Assembly: GCF_014696925.1 (NCBI RefSeq)
Contig: NZ_JACJQY010000007.1
Coordinates: forward strand, 1 to 64,000
Direction of reading: 5' to 3'
DNA length: 64,000 bases
Origin: Phormidium tenue FACHB-1050
GTDB taxonomy: Bacteria; Cyanobacteriota; Cyanobacteriia; Pseudanabaenales; Pseudanabaenaceae
Shown: piece after piece, positions 14,016 through 44,803 of the stretch
Layout: every line of letters starts with the position of its first letter
Position numbering within the stretch: position 1 is the stretch's first letter
Notes under the pieces: generated by a model
Told to the model about the DNA's origin: nothing
Databases searched by the model: none
Seen by the model: the letters and a program-made list of their open reading frames with translations, nothing else
Made by a program: the position numbers and the translations under genes

Positions 14016-14025
14016 TGCTGTTTCC

Positions 14026-16622: not shown

Positions 16623-16645
16623 GAGTTTTTCCTTCCATTTAGGAA

Positions 16646-16676
16646 TCAGGTCATGGACTTCTACGCGATAGCGTAT
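16646..16676 (-). promoter_or_regulatory. Shared leader motif, copy at ssb
   Basis: On the minus strand this reads CGCTATCGCGTAGAAGTCC then ATGACCTGATT, about 25-55 bases before the ssb start. The same pattern, CGCTnnCGC-nn(n)-AAGTCYRTGA-nGATT, recurs upstream of the genes starting at 23705, 34308 and 35420. Confidence 0.5.
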
Positions 16677-16684
16677 CTTTAAAA

Positions 16685-16732
16685 AAAATCAATAACTCTC
16701 CAATCCATTTTGACTGGTGAGTTATTGATTTT
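16685..16732 (-). terminator. Hairpin terminator after the RecA-like ATPase
   Basis: Perfect 14-bp stem AAAATCAATAACTC / GAGTTATTGATTTT with a 20-base loop and flanking A/T tracts, directly after the gene's stop. Confidence 0.75.
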
Positions 16733-16739
16733 GCGATTT

Positions 16740-17912: not shown

Positions 17913-17986
17913 AGATATTTCTCCTTTTGAGTAAGTGGGTTTGGTAAATACTTGGAATTTTTCCTTGCGAGCCTCGCTAGAGGAAA

Positions 17987-18025
17987 AGCGAGAAAAGGCG
18001 GCGCATCGCGCCGCCTTTTCTCGCT
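17987..18025 (-). terminator. Strong GC-rich terminator after the VWA gene
   Basis: A perfect 18-bp stem (AGCGAGAAAAGGCGGCGC and complement) with a three-base loop, placed between the VWA gene's stop and the start of the ATPase gene. Confidence 0.85.
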
Positions 18026-18035
18026 TCAGAGTTTT

Positions 18036-19493
18036 TTAGATGCTGTATAAACAGTCAGATACTTCGCCGTCGTCTGTGAGATCTTCTATCTGCACATAGC
18101 GATCGCATAGCTTGCCGATCGTGCTTTCATAGTTGCTAAGGTTGCCACTGGTAATCAAAATGCCATAACAACTAAATTCATACTTTTTCCTGTCTGCTTG
18201 CCATTGCTCCATGAAACTAGATGATGGGTTGTCTAGTCCGTCGGTGATTAATACCACGTCGGCTTTCTTGGTATGTTCGTGCTGTTGGATCGATGCTAAT
18301 GCTCCCGTGAGGGCGGCTGTAAAACAAGTACTGCTGCCGTTGTAGAACTTTTCGATGCAGTCAATTACGCGATTAGTGTCGGGAGTTTCACCTGCAAAGT
18401 CGTCGATCCGCTCCACTATGTCTGTAAAGTGCAAGATGCGGCAATGGCGCTTTTGGCTCACAGCGATACTCAATAGAGCTAGAGCGATCGCTTTGCTCCA
18501 GATTTCTGCTTTCCCTGCCATTGACCCACTGGAATCTAGACAAATGATGATTGGTCCTCTGGCTAGGGGTTCGCGGCTGATTAATTCTCGTTGCAAAAGC
18601 GATCGCTCGATGTACCCTTGGGCAAATATGGGAAATAGTGCGGGTTGGGTGAGCTTGACTAGCTCGCAAGGCAGTAGTCGGGTTAGGTCGTTGCCTGTGG
18701 TTACGCCGATGATTTCGGTGCGTCCTTCTTTGACTTTGCTGCGTTGCATCTTGGCAGCGATCGCGATTTTCTTGCCTGCGAGTTCAGCGATCGCTTGCAG
18801 TTTTGGCGATGCTTGAAGGCGCTGGGCTAGATGGATTTTATCGGCGATTTTGAGTTGGGTTTCGTTGCTGTAATTGCTGCTGCCGCTAAAGGCTGATAGG
18901 CTTTCGGCGATCGCTTGCATTTCGGCTTCGGCTTTGGCAATGCCGATCAGCAGTGCGGTTTCAATTTCTGATGGGCTAATTGAGTCGGCGTAGGCTTCAC
19001 ATGCAAGTCGGACTTCTAGTCCCTGTTGTTTTAACTGTTGAATCTTTTGCATCAGTCCCGCGCTGGGTGTTTGCTCTTGAATCGCTTCAAAGATGCCTCG
19101 CAGTTGTTTTCGGATTACTTCTGGGTCTTCTAGTGGCTCGACTGGTTCGGGCAGCATTTCCACGATGGCGATACATAGGGCGGTTGTGCCGATGCCTGAG
19201 AGAAATTCATCTCCGTTCAGGCGGTTGCTAAATTGTTGAAATACTTCTAGTTCGCTCATCTGTTGGTGGATGGCGATCCAGATTTTGTTTTCTGGTTTAA
19301 TAGCACTGTCTTCTAATCGGTTGGGCTGGCGATCGTACAGCCGATGGTAGGTTTCGCTGACAAAGGTTTCAAAGTTGTAGATTTTGCGATCGCCTTCTTC
19401 GATAACATCATTCAGTCTGGATGACTTTTCTTTAAAATCATCTATACACAACTCTGTCCATTTGGGGATTACATACACTAATGGTTCTTGCAT
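18036..19493 (-). CDS. VWA-domain protein, partner of MoxR ATPase
   Basis: A 485-residue protein. The C-terminal von Willebrand A domain carries a complete metal-binding MIDAS: DSSGS (D320), a conserved threonine in SSTCFTAAL, and DGLDN. The N-terminal 280 residues are helical and acidic. The architecture resembles ViaA-like proteins, which act with a MoxR/RavA-type AAA+ ATPase; such a gene lies immediately upstream. These pairs are thought to work as chaperones that insert metal or remodel a target complex. The target is unknown here. The protein immediately upstream of MoxR is the best candidate partner. Confidence 0.82.
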   Translation of the reverse strand: MQEPLVYVIPKWTELCIDDFKEKSSRLNDVIEEGDRKIYNFETFVSETYHRLYDRQPNRLEDSAIKPENKIWIAIHQQMSELEVFQQFSNRLNGDEFLSGIGTTALCIAIVEMLPEPVEPLEDPEVIRKQLRGIFEAIQEQTPSAGLMQKIQQLKQQGLEVRLACEAYADSISPSEIETALLIGIAKAEAEMQAIAESLSAFSGSSNYSNETQLKIADKIHLAQRLQASPKLQAIAELAGKKIAIAAKMQRSKVKEGRTEIIGVTTGNDLTRLLPCELVKLTQPALFPIFAQGYIERSLLQRELISREPLARGPIIICLDSSGSMAGKAEIWSKAIALALLSIAVSQKRHCRILHFTDIVERIDDFAGETPDTNRVIDCIEKFYNGSSTCFTAALTGALASIQQHEHTKKADVVLITDGLDNPSSSFMEQWQADRKKYEFSCYGILITSGNLSNYESTIGKLCDRYVQIEDLTDDGEVSDCLYSI

Positions 19494-19522
19494 TTTGAGT
19501 CTCTATTAGGTTGAGAAAGTTG

Positions 19523-19545
19523 AGAGAGCAGATAGTCTGCTCTCT
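19523..19545 (-). terminator. Hairpin between MoxR and VWA genes
   Basis: Perfect 10-bp stem AGAGAGCAGA / TCTGCTCTCT with a three-base loop. It could attenuate readthrough into the VWA gene or protect the upstream mRNA end. Confidence 0.6.
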
Positions 19546-19556
19546 TTTGGTTGGGG

Positions 19557-20774
19557 CTATGCTCCGTACATGATTTCGCTGACTTTCGCTAGTAATGGTT
19601 TCTTCTTGGCTTCGATTTCGGCGATCGCTTGTTGTGCTTTCTTTGCCCTGTTTGGGTGTTGAGCAATCAGGCTTTGCAGTCTGTCGATCATGTTTCGCAT
19701 ATCGGACAGTACTCCCGAACCTTCGGTTGCCCAATCGTCTTGCTGTTTCTTTGTGCCATAAACTGGACAGTTTCCCAAGTTTGAAAGCTTTTCGGTGATG
19801 GCAGCGAGGATTTCTTGGGCTTGGATATTCACGGGGTTGCCCACTTTGGCGACGATTTTTCTGATCAGCGCTTGTTCTCTAGGATGATTCCAGATCACAT
19901 GGTTGAGAATTTCAAAGCTGTCTTCGCTTACTTCGGGTTCTTCTTGCAAATAAGCATAGGCTTTGAGAATGGTGACAATCTGCACGTATTTTCTGGTACT
20001 GACGATGAAGTTTTCTTTCTTTAGTTCCCGTTGCAGGTCAATCAGGGAGGCGATGACTGGGGCGGGGAATGTCACGTTTTTCACAGCGGTTTGCATTTGC
20101 TCTAGTTCTGCTAGGCTCAGCATGGTGGTAATCTGCGGTGCGGCAATGTTGCCTGTTTTGCGGAGCAGTAATGTTCGCAGGTCTTCATCGCCTAGATAAT
20201 CGACCATGTACCGCAGGCTCAGTCGATCCCAGAATGCTCCATCTTCTTCCCCATCTAGGAGTTCGTTGGAACAGCCAATCATGGTGATTAATGGTGATTG
20301 CAGTTTGGTTTTGCCGTTTAGAAATTCCCGTTCGTTCATCAGTCCTAATGCGGAGTTGCGGACAATGCTATTGGCTTTGCCAATTTCATCCATTAACGCT
20401 AGATGGGCTTCGGGTAACATTGCTTCGGTGTCGCGCACGAATTTGCCTTTTTGCAGTTCGGCAAGGTCGGGCGCTCCTAATACTTCTTCGGCAACAGTAG
20501 TTTTGGTCATCAGGTAATGGAAGAAGGTGGTTCCTGTGATTGCGTCTGAGACGGCTTTCGCGAGTTCGGTTTTGCCTGTGCCGGGTTTGCCTCCTAAGAA
20601 GATATGCATTTTCGATAGCAGTCCCACCATGATTAGGTCGATCGCTTCGCTGCGGTCTAGGTACACGCTTTTCAATTCTTCTCGCAGTTGTTGCAATTTC
20701 GCTAAGGCTGATTTTGGGGTTACGGTCAAGGCGGTGATATGTCCATTGGTCTGCGCGATTTCGGTTGCCATCAT
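19557..20774 (-). CDS. MoxR/RavA-family AAA+ ATPase
   Basis: A 405-residue AAA+ protein: Walker A GKPGTGKT (62-69), Walker B LALMDE (D129-E130), sensor-type IGCSNE, and the MoxR hallmark FHYLMTKTTVAEEVLGAPD. A C-terminal lid and a coiled basic tail follow. MoxR ATPases form hexamers that remodel protein complexes together with VWA-domain partners; the next gene encodes such a partner. The following three-gene set (unknown 346-aa protein, MoxR, VWA) is probably one functional unit. Confidence 0.88.
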   Translation of the reverse strand: MMATEIAQTNGHITALTVTPKSALAKLQQLREELKSVYLDRSEAIDLIMVGLLSKMHIFLGGKPGTGKTELAKAVSDAITGTTFFHYLMTKTTVAEEVLGAPDLAELQKGKFVRDTEAMLPEAHLALMDEIGKANSIVRNSALGLMNEREFLNGKTKLQSPLITMIGCSNELLDGEEDGAFWDRLSLRYMVDYLGDEDLRTLLLRKTGNIAAPQITTMLSLAELEQMQTAVKNVTFPAPVIASLIDLQRELKKENFIVSTRKYVQIVTILKAYAYLQEEPEVSEDSFEILNHVIWNHPREQALIRKIVAKVGNPVNIQAQEILAAITEKLSNLGNCPVYGTKKQQDDWATEGSGVLSDMRNMIDRLQSLIAQHPNRAKKAQQAIAEIEAKKKPLLAKVSEIMYGA

Positions 20775-23827: not shown

Positions 23828-25998
23828 GTCGAGGTAGGGTATTATCCCTAGCCCCTCTCTGTTAGATCTGGACGTACCCATTTCTGTGTATCCAGCTCCC
23901 GATATTCTTAGCTTGCGCTTTTGCTCATGTGATGATAATCGTGGCAACTTTCATGTATTGCTACAAGGTTTTTATGCTTCCAATTATTATGATTTCCATC
24001 TACATGATGTAAATGTACTTTTTCATCATCTGCGAATTTTAATCCACAGTTTTTACATGAATGGTTTTGCCTTTTAAGGGCTTTAGAGGTCATGTTGTCA
24101 TAGAGCTTGCTATTACGTTCGCTCCAATAGACAATATCGCCATCGTAGGGGGATTTATTTCCTTTGACATTGATATGTTTGCTTTCAGAGTAAGGAACGG
24201 CAGGGAAGGCTTTATCTAGTAATTTCTTGCTAGAGTAGCGATTTTGCTTGGTTTCCCTGTTAAACACCTTGTATGCTCTGGTTTCGATATGGTATAACGA
24301 GTTCCTTGAACCGTCCATCTTGCAGAAGCGATGGTAGTTTCTCCAGCCTCTAACAATGGGTGCTAGCTTTTTAGCTTTTTCCATTGCACCAAAATTCGAG
24401 CTATTGACAATGGCTTTTACCTTCTTACGGAAAGATTTATAGTTCGCCTCTGAGGGTGTACTTCTAAATTTTCCGTTTTTCTGACATTTGAAATGCCAGC
24501 CTAGGAAGTCAAAACCGTCTTTCGTGGCGGTTGTCTTGGTTTTTCTTTCACTAACTTTCATACCTCTTGAGGCTAGAAATTCGCTGATTTTGGCAAGTAT
24601 TTCAACATCGTTATCTTCAGGGCGTAGGATTATAACCATGTCATCTGCGTAACGGATTGATGGCTCTATCCAAACTCTATTGGAACCTTTGTATCTGTGA
24701 ATACTTTCGATGCCATTTAGTGCGATGTTGGCTAATAATGGACTTATTACTCCGCCTTGTGGCGTTCCTTGGTCTGGAAAACCTACATTGACTCCAGCTT
24801 TGAGGCATCTAAAGATGCCAAGCTTTAGCCCTGAAGGGGCGATTAGGTTTTCCATGATTGCAGAGTGGTTAATCCTGTCAAAGCATTTTTCAATATCAAG
24901 CTCGATAACTCGTTTATTGATTCCGTGGCTTATGCTTCTAAGGTTGTTGAATAGGAATTTCTGAGCGTCATGCGCTGAGCGTCCTGTTCTGAACCCATAG
25001 CTTCGTGCGTGGAAGGTTGCTTCGTGTGCTGGCTCAAGTACATATTTTGCTAAGCATTGCCAAGCTCTATCCGCAATTGTGGGTACTTTGAGCATACGGA
25101 TTGTCCCATCTTTTTTAGGGATAGGGATTTCTCGCAGACCTGAGTGTTTCCAGTTGATATGATGTTTGGCTAAAGTTTTCTCTAGCTCAAATCGTTCCTC
25201 GAATGAGAGGGACTTTTTGCCATCTATACCAGCCGTCTTTTTGCCAGCATTTAGCTGCGTTACTTGCCGAATTGCTAGTAGTCTAGCTGATTTGGATTTG
25301 AGAATTAGTTTTTGTAAAGACCTTGCTTTCCGCATATCTTTAACTTGAACCGCTCTGAACACTCGCTTTTGCAACCTAAAAAGATTAACTCGAAATTTCT
25401 TCCAAGGTAATTCTTTCCAAAGTTCACTAATATTTCTATCGTGGCTAACCATGATTTGCTCTAGTTTATGTTTTCTGAATACCTTGAGGCAATTACGCCC
25501 CATCCTACCCGTGTCTAAGGGGTTAATCCTCTCGTCTGGTCTACCGTAATTTCGACAAATTACAGACCTTAGACTCGTTTTTATTCGTTCCGTCCAAAAG
25601 ATTGATATGTCCCTTTAGATGTAGCCAATTCAATCGCCAGAACCCCTTACTCATGCTGCTAATCAAAAGAAGTTGCGGCGGGGTGTTAATCTCTGGCGAG
25701 GTCAGATTTTAAGGATTGCGTCTGCCTACTCCTAGATTGCTTTTCTAGGCTCTATTTCATCTTGGGGACTCCCTTTAGCGCCAGTGTTACTTGCAATTAG
25801 TATCTGATTGCGCCCTGTTCCCAGCTTCAGCCTCCAAGTAACGAGCTTGGTCACTGTGGGCAGATAAGGAGTCAGTCTTGAGTTTAGACGGTAAGGCTTA
25901 CACTTACATCGTCTGGACAGTTAAGCTAGACTTGGGAGTCTTGACTCTAGCGGTTATGTACGGACTGGTTACCGTGATTCACGCTAAACGAATCGCAC
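23828..25998 (-). mobile_element. Group II intron 2, inserted in the helicase gene
   Basis: A 2171-nt intron on the minus strand starting GTGCGATTCGTTTAGCG and ending CTCGAC, the same ends as intron 1. Domain V lies at 23865-23898; its basal stem matches intron 1, but the upper stem is changed (ACACAGAAATGGGT), with one likely A-G mismatch. The 5' portion (25504-25998) is structural RNA without a gene. The insertion point is 14 codons before the end of the helicase gene. High similarity to intron 1 implies recent movement within this replicon. Confidence 0.92.
23908..25452 (-). CDS. ltrA: Group II intron reverse transcriptase/maturase with HNH domain (copy 2)
   Basis: A 514-residue protein from the Met of MVSHDRNISELW; the frame could extend 51 bases upstream. 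It is very close to the protein of intron 1 over its whole length, with scattered substitutions. The catalytic YADDMVIIL, the GTPQGGVISPLLAN motif, the maturase region and the C-terminal HNH zinc-type domain (CKNCGLKF, HHVDGNHNN) are all intact. Either intron protein could serve both introns. Confidence 0.93.
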   Translation of the reverse strand: MVSHDRNISELWKELPWKKFRVNLFRLQKRVFRAVQVKDMRKARSLQKLILKSKSARLLAIRQVTQLNAGKKTAGIDGKKSLSFEERFELEKTLAKHHINWKHSGLREIPIPKKDGTIRMLKVPTIADRAWQCLAKYVLEPAHEATFHARSYGFRTGRSAHDAQKFLFNNLRSISHGINKRVIELDIEKCFDRINHSAIMENLIAPSGLKLGIFRCLKAGVNVGFPDQGTPQGGVISPLLANIALNGIESIHRYKGSNRVWIEPSIRYADDMVIILRPEDNDVEILAKISEFLASRGMKVSERKTKTTATKDGFDFLGWHFKCQKNGKFRSTPSEANYKSFRKKVKAIVNSSNFGAMEKAKKLAPIVRGWRNYHRFCKMDGSRNSLYHIETRAYKVFNRETKQNRYSSKKLLDKAFPAVPYSESKHINVKGNKSPYDGDIVYWSERNSKLYDNMTSKALKRQNHSCKNCGLKFADDEKVHLHHVDGNHNNWKHKNLVAIHESCHDYHHMSKSAS

Positions 25999-28900
25999 CT
26001 TTTGTGGAATTGTAAGTTGTTCGCCTCCTCGAACTAATCTAAAGTCAGCCAATAGCTTGGATTCTGGGATTGCCCCAAGCCGATCGCCATTCACAGGAAT
26101 TTCAATCTCAACATTGCTAACAAGCTGCGCGATTTGTTCCAGCCAGTTATCAGCGTCACCTGATACCCAATCCTCAAACTGTCTCTGCCTTAATGCCTCC
26201 ACGATCGCTGTTGATGGTGGCTCTAGTTGAGATGCCCTAGAGTCTCTTTCCCAGAAGATTTCTTGCGATTCTTCCAAGTCTTCGCCATCTACACAGTTGT
26301 CAGTTTCACTATCATCGACAGGAGATTCATGGGCGATCGCATCAAACATCTCCTTCAGGAATCCTAACCGATTTGATTTCTGCTCATATTCCTGTGCTTG
26401 CTCAAAGGGTTGACTGACTCGATTTTGTAGTATTGGCAATTCTTGTCTGTCTCGTTCCAGATTCTCTTGGGCTGTGGTTAGCTTGGCAGCGATCGCATTT
26501 CTCACTACATGCAATAGTGAACTATAGGGTTGCTGGCATTCTGCGTTAAATTCATAGCCTGAATTGATGCTCGTACCGATATACCCATTAACCTCTGATC
26601 CAAATCTGCTTAGAAATACGTTCAGTCCTGCAAATTGTCCAATTTGGATGTGGGTCAATCGATAGCTTTCTTTTAGACGTTGCACTTGTTCGGTAATGTG
26701 ATGATCGATGAGCACGGCTTTATCCAGCATCACTCCGCGATCGCTGATGAATTGTTTTAGGTTCGCTTGAGATACTGTGGCTAGGTCGTCTTGAATGCGC
26801 TGAATGCTGGCGGTATGGGTGGTATTTACCATGTCAGTTAGGTACTGAATCTTGGATTTATCCCTAAATTGCCTGTCGTTATAGGCTTGCAATTGCATTC
26901 CTAGTCCTTGCAATTCAGCTTCGAGGGTAGCGCGTTCCATGATGAGCGGATCTCCCGATGCGATCGCTTTCATTTGGGCGGCATTGAGGACTGTCTCATC
27001 AATGTCTTCAATGGTGCGATGGGTGCGATCACCCGACATCACCTGCGAAATCATCCGTTGTTTGTTCTCAATCGCTTGCCACAGAAATGAATCAAATCCT
27101 GCTTGGTTATTCCTACCTTCAGTAACATAACGGAAGATAAAGACATCACTCCATTCGTTACCCTGACGCACGCCTCTACCTTCCCTTTGTTCCAAATCCG
27201 ATGGTCGCCATGGACAATCAATATGATGCAAGGCGATGAGTTTGCTTTGCATGTTCACGCCTGTTCCCAGTTTTGATGTCGAACCGAAAACAATCCTGAT
27301 CATGCCCTCATTGATGGCTTCAAATAGTTTGGCTTTTTTGGTATCGGTGTCGTAATCATGAATAAAGGCAATCTGGTCAGCGGGTATGCCCAGTATCACG
27401 AGAGTATCGCGGATATAGCAATAGCTATTCCATCTGTCTTTTTTGGGTGCGTTGCGATCGCAGAAGATTGCTTGAGTGCCTTTGGCGATCGCGGTAATTG
27501 TCCAGATTTGCCAGACATTCCATGCACAGGCTAGCAGTTTGTTGTTAATCCATTCACTTGCATTAGGCGATACCAATTTGGTGTGCATACAAGCTTTGGC
27601 TCCATCGCCTGTGATTTTGAGCATGTTGTCAATTTCGGGTTTGACTTTACGTTTTGCCACTGCCTCAGCGCGATCGCAGAGTTTGTCCATATAGGCGATT
27701 TGCTCTGGTGATGGTTTGCAGGACATCACATGGTAATGGGGCTTCGGGGTTTTCACTTCGGCAAGGGCTGCGGTCTGGATATCGGTGACTTGACACCACA
27801 TCGCCATCAGTTCGGGCATGTTAACGAATTCGCGGAGGCGGGTTTTCGATTTCAGTTTGCCTGTGGGACTGATTTCTAAGGCGGTGCTGGTTTCACAGAA
27901 TCTCGAACAGAAGCTATCGAAGTGGGTTAGTCCTTGCTGTTGTAGCAGGTCTAGTTGCAGATAGCGCATCCACACGTCCATTTCTGCCATAGTGTTGCTT
28001 AGGGGTGTACCTGTGGAAAAGATGACTCTTTTGCCGTTGATGAGCAGGTATCGCACTTTCATGAAGGAGTCATGGGCGCGTTGGCTATACCCTGTGGGAA
28101 TGCCCGCAACATTGTGCTGGGTGGTCAGGATTTGCAGTCGTTTGATTTGCTGTACTTCGTCCAGAAATAAAGCATCAATTCCCAGTTGCTCGAAGTAAAT
28201 CACGCGGTCTTTGCGATCGCTGTTTTCGATTTCTTGGATGCGTAAAGAGATTTTCTTTCGCATGGCTTCTAAGTTGCGGAAGACTTGTTTGGATTCTTCT
28301 TTGTTGGTGGCTTCACAGATAGAGCTAATTGCGGACATTTGCTCCTCGAGAAACAGAAGTTCGGTTGATTCGCTGATTTGCAGGTTGAAGAATTGTTCGT
28401 AGGTGAGGATGATGGCATCATAGTTGTGGGTGGCGATTTGGCTCAGTAGGACTCGGCGGCGATCTTTGGCAAAGTCTTGAGCATTCGGTACGAGAATCTT
28501 GGCTTCAGGATAAAGTCGTCTAAATTCTTTGCTGTAGCCTGGCAAAATCGATTTCATGGTTACGTGCATGACTTTGTGAGCCATGCCTTTGCGTTTTAAC
28601 TCCATGCCTGCGGCAATCATTGTGGCAGTTTTGCCATAGCCAACCCGATGGGCGGCAAAGGATGCTTTTTGCCGTTCGACGCGACGCACGAAGTTGCGCT
28701 GGTGACTTCGCATCTGAAAGTCGGGAGCCATGTTGGGGAAGGTTAGATGTGAGCCGTCATATACGGTGTCGCGGTAGAGGTTGTGGTATTGGTTGTAGTG
28801 CAGACATAGTTGTTCGGCGCGATCGCCTTCACTCCAGATCCATGCTTTAAAGGCGGTTTGGATTTTGTCTTGCATTGTCCGCGATGCTGTGGTGGCTTCT

Positions 28901-30210
28901 ACATTCAAAATGCTGATGACGTTGCCTTGTTTGTCTGTGATATGGTCATAGATTTTGGGATCTTTTTGGTTCAGTGAGTGTTCTATCAGTTCAAGTGCTG
29001 TGTGGCTGGTGGTTCCCCATTCGGTTTTGTTTTGGGGTGAGTTGATCAGTTTGCTGTCGCCTTTGATTACCCAGATGTTGGCTGGGTCGGGATGGAATTT
29101 GACGGTGCTGATTCCTGCATGGCTAAGTAGTTGTTCGCTAAATTCTTTGATGACATCTTCGGGGAGCCATGTCGTTCCTAGTTTGACGCGGATCGTGTTG
29201 TGCAATAGTAGGTTTAGCTCGTCGGTGGTCATGCCATTGACGTTGATGCCGAGTTTGACTGCACAGCGCACTTTGATATCTACGTCTGGGGTTTCGGGTA
29301 AACAGGGGACGGGTTGATTGCTGCTGATGGTTTGATGGTATTTGTCGATGTTTAGCCAGTTGGGGACTCCGCTTTCTTGCCATGCGATGATTTTGTTGAG
29401 TCGGTTGACGACGTTGCCACTGATGAATTCTTCTCTGGTTATCCATTCGGAATTAGTAGTTTCATTCACTGTTGCGGGTGGGATTGTGCCGTTGTAGAAG
29501 ATGTCGCCTTCTAGTTCAGTGATGACGGTGCTGATGCTTTTGTCAATCAGGTTAGCGATCCAGTCTAGATCGATATAACTTTTGGCATCCAGACATTGGG
29601 CTAGGGCATCTTTGGCATTGTCTGCTCGATACCTTGGGGTGGCTCTGACTGTCCTTTGATGGAAGATGGGGGCTTTGGCTGGGCTTTTGCCTTTGCCTCG
29701 GTCAATTTCTAATGCTCTCAATCGATAGTAGTTGGGGTCATCGTGGAAAATACCGAGGTTCTCTTTGCTGGTGAAATGTCCGAATCTAATTGCGAACTCA
29801 TCATATTTTTGATTGAGAATCTGACGCAGTTTGGCTAGTTCTTTTTCGTCTTCGTATTGCTGCATTCTCAGCACTAGGTCTAGGATTTTAGCGACAGACA
29901 TGGCGGCGCGAATGCGTTGTTGTTGGTTTGCGACTAGTTCTAGCTGATAGTCGGTGCGACGATAGATTTGTCCTTCATGTTCGCAAAAGGCGTTGGGTAG
30001 CACTTTTTGTAACTGCGGTGGGATCTGAATTACTTTGGTTTGAGTTACAGAGGGTTCATAGAATTTTGCGATCGCTTTACCGATTTTGCTAATCTCTTTT
30101 CTCAGGTCAAAGTTTGCTGGGGCAGTTACTCCTAAATGCTCTCCTCCATATAGTTTGGAGACAGTCAGTTCACCAAGGATATTGCGGAATTTTAATGGGG
30201 TTATAGACAT
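25999..30210 (-). CDS. DarB-like SF2 helicase, 5' exon
   Basis: This exon encodes 1404 residues; splicing adds 14 more. A long N-terminal region (~490 residues) precedes an SF2/SNF2-type helicase with Walker A VGYGKT (about 523-528), an acidic box LFLDEVQQI, STGTPLSNTMAEM, and the C-terminal motifs KLGTGVNMQ and QREGRGVRQGNEWSD. The last ~330 residues are coiled-coil rich. This type of helicase is found in phage P1 DarB-like and plasmid methyltransferase-helicase proteins, where it acts on incoming or replicating DNA, for example in anti-restriction. Its methyltransferase half is encoded separately by the next gene upstream. Without splicing the protein would end VRFV. Confidence 0.85.
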
Positions 30211-30299: not shown

Positions 30300-31283
30300 C
30301 TAGGCAACCTCTACAAACCATTGATTAATCATGATTGGCTCCTGATTGACTGTGTGTTTGCCCGATGGAACTGTCTTTACCCAATCAGGACATTTATAAT
30401 TCTTTTGATTCGTGGCTATCTGTTCAGTTTCTGTGAGTTTACGGAAAATAAGAATATCGGCAACTACTTCCGTGTTGGCAAATCTCTTAAAAGCGATGTC
30501 TGGCAATCTAATCGCAGTCACTAGCTCTAATTTACTCGCTAGATATTTCCGAAAGCTGGTATTAGAAGCATCTAGGGTGAAACAACTGGTAATCAAGCAT
30601 ATCAATCCATTTTCTCTGACTAAATCTATAGATTTGACTAGGAAATAGTTATGGATGCTTAAGTTCATGTGGGCATACCGTGGATCGTACAGTTTGTAAT
30701 TGCCAAAGGGAACATTACCGATCGCTAGATCAAAACTGTTGTCACTTAGGCTCACTGTCTCAAATCCCTGAGCGTAAATCAGTGCTTCTGGGTATAGCAA
30801 TCTCGCAATTTGGGCAGAGATTGGGTCTAGTTCTATGCCGACCCATTGAGAGATCTCTCTCATCGCTGTAGGCTGACATCCCATGAACGCTAGGGTATTG
30901 CAAGCGGGTTCAATGATCGCTCCACCTGTAAAACCAATATCACCAAGGAGATCCCACATGGCGCGGATTACTTCAAAGCTAGTTTGGTAAGCGGTTGCCG
31001 TTGCGGATTTGGCGGCTTGGATTTCGGCTTGGGTCAATAGTTGACTTAGTTTTTCATGGCATCGATGCTGCCAAGTATTACCTTGATGATTGGCTTTCAC
31101 CCAGATATCGGTGAGTGTTCCCCATCCTGATGCTTTGGCTAGTTCTACCTGTTGTTGTTGTGTTGCTGTTGATATTGATTTACTGAGGGCGATCGCCTCG
31201 ACGGTTGCTTCGGCTTTTACTCGCAGGGGACTATCAAAATGCTGCTCGATTTCTGGCGTGATCTCAAATATGGGTTGGTACAT
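30300..31283 (-). CDS. N6-adenine DNA methyltransferase-like protein (DarB-type)
   Basis: About 327 residues from MYQPIFEITPE; a longer form starting MASASS, 48 bases upstream, is possible. It has a Rossmann-type methyltransferase fold: motif I region IIEPACNTLAF, a WVGIELDP segment binding the adenosine ribose, and motif IV NVPFG in place of NPPY. The NVPFG variant and the degenerate glycines are usual for the methyltransferase half of DarB-like proteins. It precedes the helicase gene and would modify adenines, or bind SAM without methylating. The helicase and methyltransferase are fused in P1 DarB but separate here. Confidence 0.8.
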   Translation of the reverse strand: MYQPIFEITPEIEQHFDSPLRVKAEATVEAIALSKSISTATQQQQVELAKASGWGTLTDIWVKANHQGNTWQHRCHEKLSQLLTQAEIQAAKSATATAYQTSFEVIRAMWDLLGDIGFTGGAIIEPACNTLAFMGCQPTAMREISQWVGIELDPISAQIARLLYPEALIYAQGFETVSLSDNSFDLAIGNVPFGNYKLYDPRYAHMNLSIHNYFLVKSIDLVRENGLICLITSCFTLDASNTSFRKYLASKLELVTAIRLPDIAFKRFANTEVVADILIFRKLTETEQIATNQKNYKCPDWVKTVPSGKHTVNQEPIMINQWFVEVA

Positions 31284-31344
31284 TTTTGGCTTTTTCCCTA
31301 GTTTTTGTTCTTGGGAACTGGCGCTAGCCATAAAAAAAAGAAAA

Positions 31345-31376
31345 AAGGACACAACTAAAGCTGTCGTGTCCCTTTT
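31345..31376 (-). terminator. Terminator after RNA polymerase-like gene 1
   Basis: Stem AGGGACACGACA / TTGTGTCCTT with one mismatch, followed on the minus strand by TTTTTTCTTTTTTTT. Confidence 0.82.
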
Positions 31377-33867: not shown

Positions 33868-34308
33868 TTAGGCTGCTTTCCTATTCAGGTCTTGACGATA
33901 AACGACAAATCCATTCTTTTGCAGTTCGTCAATGGTAGTGGGCTTGGATGGTAGAAAGTTGATCTTCCCTTCCTTGGTTGCCAGAATCTTGCAGCCATAG
34001 TGAGTTTGCAAGCGTTGGCTCACTTTCTCAATTGGCATACTGAGGTTGGTCAAGGCCCATCCCTTCTTCGCTTGATATAGCCACATCTTGTCTGTGCTGA
34101 CTTGTGGTTTACGCGCTTTGGGTTTGCGGCTGGTTTCAACTACTGCATTACTGGCTGCTACTGTCTTTCCCAGTTCCTTGACGGGGATTTGTGCGTTGAT
34201 ATGGACGATCAAGGCTCTGGTGGTTACGTGCAATTCTGCTTGACTCAGTTTGTCAATGATTTTATCGGCAAGTTCTTCAGGGGTATCGAATCTTAGTTGA
34301 CGCGCCAT
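33868..34308 (-). CDS. Hypothetical 146-aa protein upstream of RNA polymerase-like gene 1
   Basis: The N-terminal ~60 residues form an amphipathic helical region (TPEELADKIIDKLSQAEL). A basic linker (RKPKARKPQ) joins it to a C-terminal ~70-residue domain, IEKVSQRLQTHYGCKIL ... INFLPSKPTTIDELQ, that recurs alone in the 78-aa protein at 23.5 kb. Its leader carries the shared CGCTnnCGC-AAGTC motif. Two paralogous copies on one replicon suggest a plasmid-specific factor. Function not recognised. Confidence 0.6.
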   Translation of the reverse strand: MARQLRFDTPEELADKIIDKLSQAELHVTTRALIVHINAQIPVKELGKTVAASNAVVETSRKPKARKPQVSTDKMWLYQAKKGWALTNLSMPIEKVSQRLQTHYGCKILATKEGKINFLPSKPTTIDELQKNGFVVYRQDLNRKAA

Positions 34309-34448: not shown

Positions 34449-34865
34449 CTAGGCGGTTAAGTAGAAGATCAAGTCCTTCTTCTTCAGTTTTCGCCAGTTA
34501 GGTATTTTGCGTTCTCTGGCTAAGGGTCTTAGTTCTTGGACGGTCATTTTCGTGAGTGGCTTAGTCGCGACGGTCGCTATGATTTCTGTATTTGTTGCCT
34601 TGACTGCCGATTCTAAGTTCGGGGCTGCTTTTGCTGAGGGTAAAGATACTGTTGCATCTGGTAGCACTGAGTTTGTGGCTGTTAGATTCCTGACTGTGGC
34701 TTCAGGTATTTGCCCCTGAGAATTTAGAAGCGATTGATCGGTGGGTTCAGTCCCTAGAAACGATAGTAGAGCGTAGGTTAGTGCGGTCACTAATCCCAGT
34801 AATGCGATGAGGCTGATTGTTACGATCGCTTCGGTTGCGATCTCGAATAATGATTGAGTTTTCAT
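34449..34865 (-). CDS. Membrane-anchored SAP/Rho-N-like protein
   Basis: A 138-residue protein. A single N-terminal transmembrane helix (about residues 12-36, AIVTISLIALLGLVTALTYA) leads into a low-complexity Ser/Thr/Ala linker. The final ~32 residues, MTVQELRPLARERKIPNW then KLKKKDLIFYL, have the two-helix pattern of SAP or Rho-N domains, which bind DNA or RNA. The protein could tether plasmid DNA or RNA to the membrane, but this is inference. No partner is obvious next to it. Confidence 0.65.
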   Translation of the reverse strand: MKTQSLFEIATEAIVTISLIALLGLVTALTYALLSFLGTEPTDQSLLNSQGQIPEATVRNLTATNSVLPDATVSLPSAKAAPNLESAVKATNTEIIATVATKPLTKMTVQELRPLARERKIPNWRKLKKKDLIFYLTA

Positions 34866-34967: not shown

Positions 34968-35420
34968 TTAGTTCAATTGTCTGGCTGCGTTTTTTTTAGA
35001 GAAGATATAGGGGAAGTCTTCGTGCAGGCTTTCCAACTGATTCTCAACAATTCGCCGACAATTTGCCCGATCTGTGGTGCACTGATTCATGGCGGCTTTG
35101 GCGAAATACTCGGCACTGGTCAGCATTTCCACTACACCTGTGCCAATTTTCGAGATTTGGTCGGGGTGTTGGCTGAGATATGCGCCTAGTTCTTGAACGC
35201 TGTCTCTCACTGCATCCAATATCGAATCTTGGTTCTGCACTGTTCGCTTTGTGCCGTCTCGAAAGGTTAATAGTTTTGTGCCGTCTGTTAAATCGGTGAC
35301 TTTTGCATTCATCGATTTGGCTAGGTCTATTAGCTGTTTGGTCGTCTTCAGACAGCGTGATTTCGATCTAAATACCTGCGCCTGTGTTCGGCCTGTCAAT
35401 GCACTTATTGCTATTTCCAT
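34968..35420 (-). CDS. Hypothetical protein, 150 aa
   Basis: A basic, mainly helical protein with no recognised family. Two cysteines in the last third (NQCTTDRANC) and a K/R-rich start are visible. Its leader holds a copy of the shared motif. It is the first of the minus-strand genes transcribed from this end of the block. Confidence 0.5.
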   Translation of the reverse strand: MEIAISALTGRTQAQVFRSKSRCLKTTKQLIDLAKSMNAKVTDLTDGTKLLTFRDGTKRTVQNQDSILDAVRDSVQELGAYLSQHPDQISKIGTGVVEMLTSAEYFAKAAMNQCTTDRANCRRIVENQLESLHEDFPYIFSKKNAARQLN

Positions 35421-37812: not shown

Positions 37813-37870
37813 AATCAACTTAAGTTGATAAATTTTTATAAATACAGCAAATACTATACAGGAGTTACTA

Positions 37871-39529: not shown

Positions 39530-39560
39530 AGTACTCATGCGGCAAAAGTGATAAGAAAAA

Positions 39561-39881: not shown

Positions 39882-39921
39882 AATATCTGCCATAGAAACC
39901 TCAGAACGGTCACACCCCTCA

Positions 39922-42900
39922 CTACCTTTGCTCTTGTCTCCCCTTTTGATTTTCAGCAATAACTTTAAGAGCGCGATCGACATTCTGAGCATCTTTGACA
40001 GTCACCTGACTCTGAGCAATTTCTAAACCTTTTTGCACCAGCAATGGTACATATTCGATATTTCCTTGCCTCAAGGCTTTTGTATCTAAGGTCAACGTAT
40101 CTGTAGACTGCTCCCACGTTGCCCTATATTTACCTTCATTTCCTTTACGCTCAAATACAAGATTTCCATTTTTAGATCCCACATATTCACTGGGAGTAGC
40201 CAATACTTCTCGCCACTGCGATGCGATGTGCTGGCTCAATGACTGATGATCTTTGTGCATTGCTTGCTGTGCTTTTTCGGTGATACTTTCACCTGCGATG
40301 AGGTCTTGAATACGGTCTATATATTTCTCACTCTTGCCCAAATACTCAGCGGTTCGACTCCACTCCGTTAGTTGCTGAATTTCAGCTACTTCATTACGAT
40401 CTAGTTTGATAGATTGTTGTTGTGTCGGAAATGGCACAATCTTTCCATCTACATAATCTCCTAAAGGCTGAAAGTGCATTCCCCATGTGTTGCTATGTCC
40501 TTGAAATGTCGTCAATTCCTTGGCACTATGTTTTTCCATCTGCGACCATTGCTGTTGATAGGTAACGTCTTTCAGCATTTCTGGGGTGATTTTGTACTGT
40601 TTACCCACCTGAAATGCGACTTTCTGCTCTCCTGCGATCGCGATCGCTATGTCCCCTTCCTTAAATCCATAGGCGGCATAGGGTTCATATCTCCGCGTCG
40701 TGTGACATCTACCATGTCCGCGCATTGCTTCGATACAGGTATCGACTGGCAATGAGTTCACTTCTCCATGCAGCTTTAGGGGATAAACCATCTTGATGGG
40801 TTTTCCTGTGATTTTTACTGATTGTTCAAGTTTTTCAGCAATCTCTTTTTCCTTGAAATCCTCTTGTGGGGTAGCCTGAGTATTACTCTGGGTAGCAGTA
40901 GCAACTGAGGTAAGCGCTTCTCGATCTCGCTGGGGATCGTATCGCACTCCCATCGCGGCGAGATTCTTCCATGTCATCTCGACTAAGCTTGCTTTTACAG
41001 CCTGTCCTTCATAGAGATAGGTAATTCCATTAATTCTGCCTCCTGCTTGCACTTGTGCCTTTAAACCCACGTTCTCATCGGCAAGTTTTGCCACGAATTC
41101 GGTCATTGTCGGTTGGTTTGCAGCAGCCTTGGCGATCGCTTCTTTTAATTGCGGCACAATGGCATCAAGGTTGACTGCTTCTTTGACTCGTTCTGGTGAT
41201 AATCCATGCCATATTTCAGGCAATTTGAGTGTACTTCTGTCGATCGCTAAGTCTGCATCTTTCTTGCTGGCAGAAATATGGATATTTGCAATGAACTGAC
41301 TGCCAATGGGCATATAGGCTGCATCATTGTGGACAACGCCCATATTTTCCCATTGGTCACCCGTCTGGACTTGAATTACTCTCTTGTCATAGATAGGACT
41401 TTGAGGATTGGCTTCGATTGCCATTCGGCAATTTAGGGATTCATGGGGTTGCCATTGTCGATCTTTAAGTTCGTTGGTTTCATACTGCAAGCCAATTACT
41501 TTGATTTTTTCTACCTGTAGTTCTTGCAGTTGCTTGGCGACGACTTCCGTAAACATCTTGCCTGTGATCGCGCGATTATTGTTATGCCATAGGGCAGCAG
41601 CTCGGCGATCTCTTTCGGCTTCTGGAATTGCATCCCTCTGGGTTTCCAGATATTTCTCGGCGGCAGCAAATTTGTCGTCAACGTCATTTTTGGAGATTCC
41701 TAGTTGGAATTCTAGTTTGAGGTTGGCGAAGATTTTGTCCTTTTCAAGGGTTTTCCCATAGGCAGCTAAGGTGGCTGGCGAGATTAATCCCACGTCAATT
41801 TTGTCTTGATCGATTAGGGCTACGGCTTTGTATGGATATTGTTTTTCGGTCTTCCAGTCTTTATTCTTAGCAATCTTGATATCGACAGTTTCACCTTTGC
41901 GGGCGATCTCCCAGATTGGTGACTCGCCATCGGGGTCAGTGCTAATCACGCTGACGATTTCGATTTTGTTGCCTTTGCTAGATGTTGCAGTAAGAGCAAT
42001 CCCTTCTTCATGTTCGAGACGGCTACGACTGGCGGCAGCTTCGGAGATAAGCTTGTTGTAGTGTGTGGCAATTCCCTTTGCCCATTCGCTATCTGCGGCG
42101 GTGTGGCTGTCTTTGGGGAAGATATGGTCAAAACGATTGTAGTTGCGATCGCCAATTAAACTATATTCTTTGTAAATCTGGTTGGCTTGTTCCACCATCC
42201 AGCCTACGGGGTCTTGGGTGTTAGTTTTGATGCCTTCAGTACCGATATAGGCGTAGCTATTATCTTTGTCTTTAATCCATTCGACTTGTTTGTATTTAGC
42301 GACTTTCTGACAAAATTGAAATTCATCTTCATTGACTTTTCTGGCACTTTTGGGCGTATCGACAGCACGTTGTAAGTTGACGGCGGCTAGGCTTTCTAAC
42401 TGCCACAGCAGTCTCTCGGTTTTGGCTAAACCTTGAGTTACAACAGGTGCTTTTTCTGGTTCTGGGAGTTTGGGTATGGTACTGGCGATTTGGCTGATTT
42501 CGACAATCTGGTTCCTCCATACGTCATTGAGAATGCGAAAGGGTTTCTTATCCTCTTTGTCTTCGGCAAGTAGCTTTTGGAAGTGTTTGCCTATGTCCTG
42601 CAAGTATTCGCTTCTTTCGGATTCTGGGATATATTGGGCATCCCATCGCAAGGCTTCTAGCCTCATGCCTAGATTTGCAACTCGTCCTGTGGGATTATCG
42701 GCAGCATTGACCGCAGCACTGGCTAGGTTGGCAAATCCATTGGCTGCATCGCGGGGAATCTTCTTTTCTTTTTCGACTTGAATTGGTTTGTTCTCTGGCA
42801 GATTCTTGTCAATAATCTCTTGAATTAGGGTTGGGTACTGCTCAATTGTTCTCTTGGAACTGGCTTGCTGGTCTGAGGTTAGTTGGCTAGGAATTATCCC

Positions 42901-44346
42901 TACGCGATCGCCATCAAAGTCGATGACTAGTCGTTTCGCATCGTTGGGATTGAGGTAGCAAACTCCTCTCTGTCTATAGGCTTCGGGATCTAATTCCCGC
43001 AAAACTGTGAGGTTATTCGTAAATACATCAAAGTTGGCGGCATTGGCGACGGGACTGCGATAGATGGCAACTTCGGCTCCATCGGGTAGTCCTGTAAAAC
43101 TGACTTCTCCTTCTTGGAGTTGATTATGAGGTTGAGCAATACCACTGGGGACGTAAACGCCTCCTGTGGCGACTTCTTGCCATTCACTCTGTAGGAATTC
43201 TCGCAAGCGTTTGGCGATATCTTCCATTTCTAATATCTGACAATGACCGCCTTCGATTAGGTCGGTTTTGAGGATGTCATAGAGCCAATCTTGGTATTCT
43301 TCGTTAGGTGAGGTTACTGTCTCTCGTTCAATTTCATTGGCTGTTGTGTTTTCTTGTGGGCTTAATCCTAGTTCCAGTGCTAGTTCTGGCTCAATGATTG
43401 GTGTAATGTTAGCGCGATCGCCTGTTTCTTCTTGCCTCTGCTGTTGTCGCTTTTCATGACGCTCGATATACAGTTGCGCTACCTTACGCGGGTCAGATTG
43501 GGCTTCAGCTAAGCGTTCGGCTTTGATTTTCAGCTTAGGCAATACGTCTGCTTGGACTCCTTCAGGGAAAAAGACGAGAGCTTGAGTACCCAGTTTTTGT
43601 TCAGTGAATTTAGCATCTTCTTTTCTTGACCAGAATAGACTGATCTCGTGGATTCCTGTGGTGGTGGTTTTGTTATCGCCTTTGATGCTCGATTTGGCGA
43701 TAATTCCATCGACTTCTAGGGCTTGGCAAAGCAAGCTGGCTCGACAGGTTCCTTTGATTACACCCTGCCACTCAGGTACGGCGGCGCGATATTGAAATGG
43801 GCGATTCGGTTCAGCTTTCAGTTGGTTTGCGAGTTCTGGAGAGATCAGGCTATAGCAGTCGCCGAGTTTGCTGGCGATCGCTCCCATTGCTTTGTTACTA
43901 AGGGTAATACCGTTGCTGAGGGTGATGAGTTCCTTTCCCCAGTCCGCTTGGTAGATTCCTGTATCTGGATCTTTGCTCAGTGTTTCATCATCGATGATTA
44001 GGATTCTGGCGCTTTCTTTATAGATTGAGGTTTTTGCTTCTGATACAGGTAAACTGCCATAGGCGACAGCATCGCTATGATTGGTGAAGATTTCTTGGCT
44101 TACCTTTTCAGAAATCTCGCGATCGCCAAAATAAGCAGTTCTCCCATTAGCAAGAATTAGATACAGCCCTTGCTCTTGCAGTCGCTCTATGTCTCGCTCA
44201 GTGATGCCGTCGTACATCTTGCCAACAGCTAGTTTACTCGGCTCAATGTCTTTCCCGATCTTCAGTTCGAGGTAGCTATGCTCAACGGTTTTCGGGGGCA
44301 AGGGTAACTCTTGCCCTGTCTTCAGGTCAATCTGTCTAAATTCCAT
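39922..44346 (-). CDS. Predicted giant double-psi beta-barrel RNA polymerase (QDE-1-like), 1474 aa
   Basis: The N-terminal ~670 residues carry the same ordered motifs as the 788-aa protein: PFQYRAAVPEWQGVIKGT (183-200) with K198; K222 in SSIKGDNK, 24 residues later; EVAIYRSPVANA (425-436); VCYLNPND then LVIDFDGDRVGII with D476, D478 and D480; and NPTGRVANLG (551-560) with AVDTPKSA (661-668). Only the invariant residues are shared between the two proteins, so the families separated long ago. The ~800-residue tail includes a GGRINGITYLYEGQAVKA segment (~1100), resembling the small domain at the end of some MOB relaxases, and an ASCH/PUA-like stretch (~1230-1300). A single-chain RNA polymerase with attached nucleic-acid domains is the likely role. 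Confidence 0.78.
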   Translation of the reverse strand: MEFRQIDLKTGQELPLPPKTVEHSYLELKIGKDIEPSKLAVGKMYDGITERDIERLQEQGLYLILANGRTAYFGDREISEKVSQEIFTNHSDAVAYGSLPVSEAKTSIYKESARILIIDDETLSKDPDTGIYQADWGKELITLSNGITLSNKAMGAIASKLGDCYSLISPELANQLKAEPNRPFQYRAAVPEWQGVIKGTCRASLLCQALEVDGIIAKSSIKGDNKTTTTGIHEISLFWSRKEDAKFTEQKLGTQALVFFPEGVQADVLPKLKIKAERLAEAQSDPRKVAQLYIERHEKRQQQRQEETGDRANITPIIEPELALELGLSPQENTTANEIERETVTSPNEEYQDWLYDILKTDLIEGGHCQILEMEDIAKRLREFLQSEWQEVATGGVYVPSGIAQPHNQLQEGEVSFTGLPDGAEVAIYRSPVANAANFDVFTNNLTVLRELDPEAYRQRGVCYLNPNDAKRLVIDFDGDRVGIIPSQLTSDQQASSKRTIEQYPTLIQEIIDKNLPENKPIQVEKEKKIPRDAANGFANLASAAVNAADNPTGRVANLGMRLEALRWDAQYIPESERSEYLQDIGKHFQKLLAEDKEDKKPFRILNDVWRNQIVEISQIASTIPKLPEPEKAPVVTQGLAKTERLLWQLESLAAVNLQRAVDTPKSARKVNEDEFQFCQKVAKYKQVEWIKDKDNSYAYIGTEGIKTNTQDPVGWMVEQANQIYKEYSLIGDRNYNRFDHIFPKDSHTAADSEWAKGIATHYNKLISEAAASRSRLEHEEGIALTATSSKGNKIEIVSVISTDPDGESPIWEIARKGETVDIKIAKNKDWKTEKQYPYKAVALIDQDKIDVGLISPATLAAYGKTLEKDKIFANLKLEFQLGISKNDVDDKFAAAEKYLETQRDAIPEAERDRRAAALWHNNNRAITGKMFTEVVAKQLQELQVEKIKVIGLQYETNELKDRQWQPHESLNCRMAIEANPQSPIYDKRVIQVQTGDQWENMGVVHNDAAYMPIGSQFIANIHISASKKDADLAIDRSTLKLPEIWHGLSPERVKEAVNLDAIVPQLKEAIAKAAANQPTMTEFVAKLADENVGLKAQVQAGGRINGITYLYEGQAVKASLVEMTWKNLAAMGVRYDPQRDREALTSVATATQSNTQATPQEDFKEKEIAEKLEQSVKITGKPIKMVYPLKLHGEVNSLPVDTCIEAMRGHGRCHTTRRYEPYAAYGFKEGDIAIAIAGEQKVAFQVGKQYKITPEMLKDVTYQQQWSQMEKHSAKELTTFQGHSNTWGMHFQPLGDYVDGKIVPFPTQQQSIKLDRNEVAEIQQLTEWSRTAEYLGKSEKYIDRIQDLIAGESITEKAQQAMHKDHQSLSQHIASQWREVLATPSEYVGSKNGNLVFERKGNEGKYRATWEQSTDTLTLDTKALRQGNIEYVPLLVQKGLEIAQSQVTVKDAQNVDRALKVIAENQKGRQEQR

Positions 44347-44360
44347 GTCATGATTTCTCG

Positions 44361-44576
44361 CTAGAATTCAAAGTCAATTTCTGCTTCTTTATTTGGTTTA
44401 GTTCCTTGTGTTTTCGGTTTGGCTTTTGCCTTTTTGGGCTTTGGTTCTGCATCTTCGTCATACAGGGAATACTGTGATTCATAGCGTGCTATGTCATCAA
44501 AGCTGGCTAGTCCTTCACTTAGTAATTCGTCGTAGGTATAACCTGCGTCAATCTTGGACTGGATATTGTTTCTCAT
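44361..44576 (-). CDS. Small acidic/basic protein upstream of RNA polymerase-like gene 2
   Basis: A 71-residue protein: a helical N-terminal half (DAGYTYDELLSEGLASFDDI) followed by a lysine/proline-rich tail and an acidic end (EIDFEF). It ends 14 bp before the giant polymerase-like gene and is probably co-transcribed, so it may be a small accessory subunit. No family recognised. Confidence 0.6.
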   Translation of the reverse strand: MRNNIQSKIDAGYTYDELLSEGLASFDDIARYESQYSLYDEDAEPKPKKAKAKPKTQGTKPNKEAEIDFEF

Positions 44577-44803
44577 TGGTTCCTCTTTAGGTGTTTAGGA
44601 TTGAATACAACGGATTGGAGAAATCGATAATCTAGAGAGTATATTTTATCAATTTCTCTGGATTGATGTTTGAGAATATTGTTGGTACAAATTCTGGGAT
44701 TGTCAATACTCCATTATGGTAGTTTTAGCTTCATCGGCGAATCGCTAGATTTTCCAATAGTTTCACGTTGGCTGTATTCTGGTTGTAGTTTCATTTCTTC
44801 TGT

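Follow-up and report, generated by a model that had tools for sequence, protein, structure and literature searches.

The window analysed here is a 64,000-nt stretch, positions 1 to 64000 of contig C67 (158,456 bp) of Phormidium tenue FACHB-1050, a genome whose closest matches are to Pseudanabaena. It encodes a 1474-aa protein, P0001 (39922..44346, minus strand), that is, judged by sequence and structure models, almost certainly an intact QDE-1-type single-chain two-barrel polymerase under strong purifying selection. We give a probability of roughly 0.5 to the reading that P0001 is a backbone protein in a family of conjugative plasmids of cyanobacteria and would serve as an RNA polymerase or primase on transferred single-stranded DNA (ssDNA), a function coupled to transfer. 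Fold, residues, modules, gene order and selection are established by sequence or by model; we infer the template, the recruitment, the transfer and the division of labour between P0001 and a smaller polymerase, P0002.

The polymerase core

The open reading frame (ORF) of P0001 starts with ATG and has no internal stops. Its polymerase core, residues 1-1040 (41227..44346, minus), was characterized with AlphaFold, Foldseek and VIA, and residue conservation was counted per column of a core alignment, A4. Its 45 rows were drawn from the 58 homologues, out of 80 loci, whose core is complete. The DxDxD metal-binding triad of one barrel is present within the catalytic DFDGD (residues 476-480; 42907..42921, minus), with D476, D478 and D480 conserved in 45/45 rows. 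The other barrel of the same chain contributes a lysine pair 24 residues apart in the signature KGT ... SSIKG (K198 to K222; 43681..43755, minus), where K198, G199, T200, K222 and G223 are likewise found in all 45 rows. The QDE-1 counterparts of this pair, about 24 apart, are K743 and K767. A QxAVDxxKS motif (residues 659-667; 42346..42372, minus) is equally constant at Q659, A661, V662, D663, K666 and S667 (45/45). G479 is retained in 40/45 rows and replaced by arginine in 5/45; the resulting DFDRD occurs in L057-L061 (Oculatella, Halomicronema, Oscillatoria, Leptolyngbya and Phormidesmis), which keep the remaining catalytic residues. A preliminary description, made from the letters of the window, had proposed a QDE-1-type polymerase of 1474 aa with K198 and K222 24 apart and DFDGD at 476-480. 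These positions are exact, and both lysines and the three aspartates are kept throughout the alignment.

The AlphaFold model of residues 1-1040, with A4 as input, has a mean predicted local distance difference test score (pLDDT) of 83.8 and a predicted template modelling score of 0.77. A Foldseek search with this model returned 22 matches at E <=0.001. Ranks 1-17 are QDE-1 and plant RDR2 chains, led by QDE-1 (7y7q_B, E 1.8e-10) and maize RDR2 (7w82, E 2.1e-10), and the other ranks are the crAss phi14:2 RNA polymerase, phage P74 gp62 and P32 gp64; complexes with DNA templates are among the listed structures. By VIA the best matches are gp64-type structures, 8f72 and 8f5m, with P32 gp64 at Z 18.4 (512 residues, 4.3 Å), followed by maize RDR2 at Z 17.6 (592 residues, 4.7 Å) and QDE-1 at Z 16.3 (591 residues, 7.6 Å). 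The fold of the core thus bears out the earlier family assignment.

At E <0.01, neither Pfam nor NCBIfam nor PHROGs contains a model that matches P0001, and searches of PDB sequences with phmmer (P0001) and hmmsearch (A4 and a second profile, A1) returned no polymerase. Pfam RdRP (PF05183) does not match P0001 and is not among the families listed (25 of 28) for 45 large homologues. Sequence-only searches failed, and P0001 is linked to solved polymerases by its fold and by way of P0002. For pairs of the window copy with each of four relatives, the ratio of nonsynonymous to synonymous substitution (dN/dS) is 0.08-0.13 for the core and, in the tail described below, 0.05-0.09 for the relaxase-type module, 0.10-0.12 for the ASCH domain and 0.06-0.17 for the C-terminal module (3 of 4 pairs measurable), compared with 0.33-0.42 for a linker (2 of 4 measurable).

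A paralogous partner

P0002 (31426..33792, minus) is a small two-barrel polymerase of 788 aa, characterized by BLASTP, hhalign and alignment. K195 and K218 are invariant in a 10-row alignment of its family, in which Q506, AVD 508-510 and KS 513-514 form the counterpart of QxAVDxxKS. BLASTP joins P0001 and P0002 at E 2e-24, with a second segment at 916-1015/665-768, and hhalign of the two family profiles gives probability 100 and E 3.9e-58 over 744 columns at 22% identity. That alignment spans positions 24-1012 of the P0001 profile and 59-856 of the P0002 profile, i.e., the whole core. A quick tree of 61 rows, in which several long branches and long-branch joins were flagged, splits the two kinds of polymerase across the midpoint root with support 98.

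From these sequence comparisons, the two enzymes are paralogues over their whole core. The paralogy had been anticipated, and the pairwise HHalign comparison suggested as a check upheld it; the accompanying statement that little else is shared with the 788-aa protein has to be withdrawn. Absence of profile similarity, either between the two proteins or to RDR or YonO profiles, had been named as grounds for rejecting the proposal. The proposal survives through the paralogue and the fold, with a mixed outcome for the RDR profile: P0002 matches Pfam RdRP at 1.1e-4 and 21.6 bits, under the gathering cut-off of 23.8, and P0001 does not match.

P0002 matches phrog_34895 (unknown function) at 3.4e-53, yet a search of 50,697 phage records at E 0.01 found nothing for either polymerase. 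A pattern scan of IMG/VR with A1 confirmed 0 of 74 stretches. On pPg_04, P0002 is intact and P0001 (L172:1-4733 and L173:45139-49994) is in pieces, interrupted by a Tn3-family transposon.

Modules of the P0001 tail

Behind the core we identified a module common to MOBP relaxases, relC (residues 1054-1142; 40921..41187, minus), by tblastn and an iterated hidden Markov model (HMM). With residues 1042-1147 as query, tblastn matched a Marinobacter MOBP relaxase (3e-9), a Trichormus relaxase (8e-6) and many small plasmids. Among the 84 matched records, 64 are typed mobilizable, and the matches listed outside Pseudanabaena (35/84 records) are named relaxase or mobilization nuclease, or are unnamed. 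The relaxases of Marinobacter, Trichormus and the IncQ2 plasmid pGNB2 carry relC within 179-283, right behind the PF03432 nuclease domain (17-155). Over 4827 distinct ORFs the iterated HMM took in 38 domains, each of which belongs either to a relaxase or to a Pseudanabaena polymerase, in some cases a broken one. The relaxase of contig C67 carries relC twice (5e-31 and 7e-26), as do those of three complete plasmids (at 164-254 and 251-342).

P0001 has no Pfam match to the PF03432 nuclease domain; what it has in common with MOB relaxases is only the module behind the nuclease. The preliminary description had noted a stretch like the C-terminal domain of MOB relaxases; its relaxase origin stands, and its place is corrected to just behind the nuclease domain rather than the extreme C-terminus. 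Two internal T4 signals, at 204-323 and 322-387, are described for R1162 MobA (PMC10025392). Like relC they lie behind the nuclease, and by this analogy of position relC may be such a signal. Confidence of the tail model is low over relC, to which we assign no fold.

An ASCH domain (residues 1174-1307; 40426..40827, minus) was recognized by Foldseek and VIA in a part of the tail model where pLDDT is mostly 80-94. Foldseek retrieved E. coli YqfB (probability 1.00, E 0.018), TTHA0113 (0.90) and ZmASCH (0.96) at ranks 1-4 and 8; ranks 5-7 are unrelated, with low probability, and there were no matches at E 0.001. By VIA the best match is YqfB (Z 9.0, 93 residues, 2.5 Å), and each of the top 13 rows is an ASCH protein or a relative. 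The model thus gives the P0001 tail an ASCH/PUA-like fold, and the structure prediction proposed as a check recovered the module suspected from the sequence. The catalytic lysine of YqfB-type amidohydrolases presumably sits just before HTTR. The residue before HTTR here is C (9), T (7), S (4) or V (2) in 22 of 26 motif rows (3 relC-only), as counted in the alignment. The domain is present in 37 plasmid records, which by their names are cyanobacterial; identity is 39-69% in those from outside Pseudanabaena. ASCH is better conserved than the core of the same proteins (e.g., 60-69% versus 25-26% in L066-L075).

The C-terminal module (CTM; residues 1321-1474; 39925..40386, minus) was defined with an HMM of 149 positions grown from a Nostoc homologue. 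It lies at the C-terminal end of 50 of the 63 complete polymerases, counting 43 found by the HMM and seven restored duplicates (L043, L045, L046, L047, L049, L051 and L052), and in 42/43 it ends 0-3 residues before the stop. Pairwise, residues 1374-1463 of P0001 match a 235-aa protein whose gene is the second one behind VirD4 (E 1.9e-10); the CTM HMM match to such proteins was not used, because the HMM had included them and the match would be circular. Synonymous divergence (dS) of the CTM is out of step with that of the core (1.46 versus 0.39 to L043; 0.42 versus 1.18 to L048), so plasmids seem to have exchanged this part of the protein, which fits a modular tail.

Tail modules vary among the 80 loci, with ASCH in 29 rows and a SLOG-like module in 16 rows. 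RNase H occurs in two distinct polymerases, from Gloeothece (PF00075, 2e-29) and Oculatella. The Gloeothece plasmid enzyme (L012:7995-15341) is 2448 aa long with this domain in the same chain; the pairing of RNase H with a core that makes RNA would be in keeping with an RNA-DNA hybrid as the product or the substrate. A Trichormus relative (L154:16583-24315) has at least 2577 aa, as the stretch ends there, and is a longer polymerase that combines a CTM match (4.9e-44) with an unassigned middle and no Pfam match below 0.01. By sequence the tail of P0001 is modular and varies between plasmids, as in polyvalent proteins.

Gene order and the conjugative setting

Five Pseudanabaena plasmid records carry P0001, namely pPg_04, pPg_05, ABRG53b, ABRG53a and NZ_CP112875, and the mob region was read in the first three, which are complete and circular. 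These three have one common gene order, with P0001 before P0002. Downstream of the polymerases, co-directional genes encode DUF6744, a MoxR-type AAA protein, VWA, AAA, SSB, Mov34/MPN and ThiF. A DarB-like helicase is encoded in pPg_04 and ABRG53b, and a methylase in pPg_04, ABRG53a and the window. Some genes inside the block have the opposite orientation: a pair of GTPase genes between the polymerases, in pPg_04 as well as in the window, and isolated others. The block is followed by CyRepA1 and MobD-like genes in the opposite orientation, a gap of about 0.8, 0.8 and 1.2 kb, and then mobC and the relaxase.

P0001 and P0002 therefore head a co-directional block pointing at mobC and the relaxase, which is the geometry of a leading region. 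The block fits a leading region if, as we presume, the origin of transfer (oriT) lies in the gap and the side of the relaxase and the type IV secretion system (T4SS) is transferred last. In pPg_04 the T4SS follows mobC and the relaxase on that side. The 235-aa and topA genes are present in ABRG53b and pPg_05, and a 411-aa gene in ABRG53b; the T4SS stretch itself was read in pPg_04. In known conjugative elements, leading-region SSB, methylase and anti-defence genes are described as encoded on the T-strand, suggesting that they are read from a single strand (PMC11541004).

Contig C67 encodes a VirD4 coupling protein (E 1.1e-33) and, by eye, a VirB4-like protein and further T4SS-like ORFs. The single PF03432 match in the genome, in a search confined to that relaxase family, lies at the end of C67. 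Several related plasmids seem to coexist in this genome. Contig C56 (171 kb) carries an 89% identical copy of P0001 with its own 788-aa partner, and contigs C56 and C27 each have a VirD4 gene with a 411-aa-type neighbour; the PF03432 match is on C67 only.

Distribution

P0001 matches were found in 78 of 388 cyanobacterial genomes at E <=0.001, some of them partial, and P0002 matches in 79; the two queries also match each other's relatives. The scan kept 80 of 83 confirmed loci, all cyanobacterial by name. Plasmid records matched number 85 for P0001 and 75 for P0002. Where listed, the annotation under these matches is hypothetical protein, or ribonuclease H in two records, and some rows have no feature or cover neighbouring genes. 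Our literature search found no paper on plasmid-borne cyanobacterial members; we do not claim that none is in print.

Among Pseudanabaena contigs, 22 have a P0001 match that reaches 675 aa or more; at least 16 of these also carry P0002, and by hand count P0001 is always upstream of P0002 on the same strand in those 16. Such co-location counts are lower bounds since the two best candidates per genome were scored. In the plasmid collection, both genes are present in 5/5 Pseudanabaena records with P0001, two copies being incomplete or interrupted. The suggested survey of cyanobacterial plasmids thus found the two genes together in Pseudanabaena.

In Pseudanabaena, whose polymerase includes relC, tens of kilobases separate the relaxase from it; elsewhere some relaxases adjoin the polymerase. 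A relaxase lies upstream on the same strand in 9 loci, at a distance of 712-5026 bp. Upstream sequence of 9.5 kb or more was available for 42 loci, 8 of which are among these 9.

Other features of the window

The block in the window is on the minus strand from 44576 to 9610, interrupted by plus-strand genes at 35800-39881. A 71-aa gene (44361..44576, minus) lies directly upstream of P0001, and a small gene is present there also in ABRG53a and pPg_04. Upstream of it is a promoter-like TTGACA-17-AACAAT (44678..44706, minus), a consensus match whose TTGACA is present in 6/8 aligned rows. Between the polymerases, the plus-strand genes at 35800-39881 that split the block encode two dynamin/HSR1-type GTPases and a small antitoxin-like protein. 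This patch is low in GC (0.347 for 36001-40000), and pPg_04 too has two GTPase genes between its polymerases. Also preceding P0002 are genes for a 150-aa protein (34968..35420, minus), a protein with a Rho_N domain (34449..34865, minus; PF07498, 1.9e-8) and a 146-aa protein found also in ABRG53a and pPg_04 (33868..34308, minus).

Behind P0002 the block encodes an adenine-type DNA methylase (30300..31352, minus; PF07669, 1.4e-8), a DarB-like SNF2/ResIII helicase (25984..30210, minus; phrog_10089, 5.6e-245) and, in the same order as in relatives, a MoxR ATPase, VWA, an AAA_24 ATPase and SSB (16215..20774, minus). It ends with ThiF, Prok-E2_D and their neighbours (9610..14778, minus), with one group II intron ORF inside. 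ThiF and Prok-E2_D, joined in relatives by Mov34/JAB, beside SSB and the polymerases amount to a ubiquitin-like system as plasmid backbone. Two very similar ORFs inside the block (10371-11966 and 23908-25503) resemble group II intron reverse transcriptases by eye. Beyond the block lies a CyRepA1-type replication protein (DUF3854; 5618..8758, plus; PF12965, 4.2e-42), and relatives have CyRepA1 at this place.

Relation to known systems

P0001 is like Neurospora QDE-1 and plant RDR2 in its two-barrel single-chain core and differs from them in its long modular tail, in being plasmid-borne and in that no RNA interference context was seen. YonO of SPbeta and YonO-like proteins are, by description, also single-chain bacterial two-barrel polymerases; YonO is a prophage enzyme of about 100 kDa. 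Phage P23-45 is described as encoding two two-barrel polymerases from one duplication, the virion enzyme gp96 and the non-virion enzyme gp64, of which the former is fused to the tail tape measure protein and acts on entering DNA (PMC10770324). P0001 and P0002 resemble this pair as two single-chain two-barrel enzymes on one element, but P23-45 is a phage with tail-tape delivery and P0001 belongs to a plasmid with a T4SS. The N4 virion RNA polymerase is a further precedent for a transfer-linked enzyme.

Polyvalent proteins have been described as large multidomain proteins of mobile elements, encoded beside relaxase and T4SS genes, with modules including primases and N4-type RNA polymerase (Iyer 2017; PMC5512222). 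P0001 is similarly large, with several unrelated domains in one chain, on an element with relaxase and T4SS genes. The main text of that study does not use the terms YonO, RdRP or double-psi and reports a paucity of polyvalent proteins in cyanobacteria. SogL and TraC are reported as priming enzymes transferred with their plasmids (PMC5512222, PMC8406263); they are Toprim primases and their fold is unrelated to that of P0001. Single-chain two-barrel polymerases and polyvalent proteins are thus both known kinds, and within reach of our search it is their combination, the backbone role and the cyanobacterial spread that look new.

Function of P0001 and alternative explanations

QDE-1-type enzymes can start RNA chains on single-stranded templates, as known for QDE-1. 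Such initiation, the ssDNA of conjugation, the co-sent primases and the P23-45 pair together suggest that P0001 is transfer-linked and P0002 resident. In the mechanism that we propose, relC and/or the CTM would recruit P0001 to the relaxosome or to the VirD4 coupling protein. With the transferred strand as template, P0001 would then synthesize RNA that primes second-strand synthesis and/or provides early transcripts of the genes in the leading block (SSB, DarB-like helicase, methylase), and it may be passed to the recipient together with the DNA. P0002, which has none of these tail modules, would be produced or retained in the cell. A more specific version is tentative, possible rather than probable: P0001 would be physically delivered through the T4SS with the strand by its relaxase-type signal and would start RNA on the incoming strand, so that on entry the plasmid would need neither host RNA polymerase nor single-strand promoters; P0002 would then take over. 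The preliminary description had linked the tail to DNA transfer or to modified bases. Context (relaxase, VirD4, gene order) supports transfer, the better-supported though unproven of the two, and we found no supporting evidence for modified bases.

Several observations weigh against a transfer-coupled role. C67 is an open contig, with ends that do not overlap. On pPg_04 some 30-48 kb separate the polymerases from the presumed oriT, far compared with the 13.5-kb leading region of F, and no promoter-in-hairpin of the Frpo kind was seen upstream. The upstream plus strand does fold better than shuffles (z -2.68, 2/200 as good); the alignment of this stretch is poor for several of its 8 rows. Among the loci examined, fusion of relC to the polymerase is confined to Pseudanabaena. 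The CTM matches the 411-aa-type protein directly behind VirD4 weakly (1.7e-4 to 9e-4 on three contigs of this genome; E 0.012 in pPg_04), and its matches to relaxase tails are marginal (E 0.03-2), short of a significant join. A relaxase lies within the fetched stretch in 11/80 loci only. Of the 9 loci with an upstream relaxase, the 8 that are in the tree belong to one clade of ten, mostly named Nostocales, two of which lack the relaxase; the upstream relaxases therefore reflect few events, not nine. Copies of P0001 are broken in L053, L054 and pPg_04, and PLSDB types 30 of the 85 records with P0001 matches as non-mobilizable; pPg_05, so typed, has annotated mobC and relaxase genes.

The non-mobilizable replicons and the interrupted copies, which imply that the gene is not always needed, would also suit a vegetative enzyme, one that serves the resident cell by transcribing plasmid genes or priming plasmid replication and has no part in transfer, with relC just binding plasmid DNA near oriT or the replication origin. 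Rep and SSB genes in the same region, the sigma-70-like promoter before the 71-aa gene and, in one genome, a homologue on a contig with positions beyond 3.2 Mb (G252:C3) point the same way. We nevertheless regard this explanation as unlikely, given that the listed relC matches outside Pseudanabaena are relaxases, mobilization nucleases or unnamed, and that the block points at mobC and the relaxase in all three complete plasmids read there. It is improbable that P0001 is chiefly a polyvalent anti-defence protein, with ASCH, SLOG-like and C-terminal modules disarming the recipient and the polymerase as one payload of several. The differing tails of its relatives and the DarB-like helicase and methylase in the block agree with such a role, but the constant part is the core and the variable part the tail, and the modules of P0001 have no demonstrated anti-defence function.

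More doubtful still is an RNA-templated enzyme that, in the manner of fungal QDE-1, produces double-stranded RNA directed at competing elements. The first 17 Foldseek matches are QDE-1 and RDR2 chains, but gp64-type phage enzymes match equally well, and P23-45 gp64 is described as transcribing phage DNA (PMC10770324). No argonaute- or dicer-like gene was seen among annotated or Pfam-scanned neighbours, the genome as a whole not having been searched for one. That a dead polymerase has been retained as a scaffold is very improbable: both lysines and all three aspartates are invariant in the core alignment and dN/dS is low, and apart from DFDRD in five homologues we found nothing in its favour, and no direct support.

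Implications

If P0001 does act on transferred DNA, bacterial plasmids would have in their backbone a gene for a polymerase of the RNA-interference type that is linked to DNA transfer, the plasmid equivalent of the injected phage RNA polymerases. Priming or transcription of entering single-stranded plasmid DNA without host promoters would become testable. The single-chain RDR relatives would have a natural setting in bacteria, and cyanobacteria would be seen to use polyvalent proteins after all.

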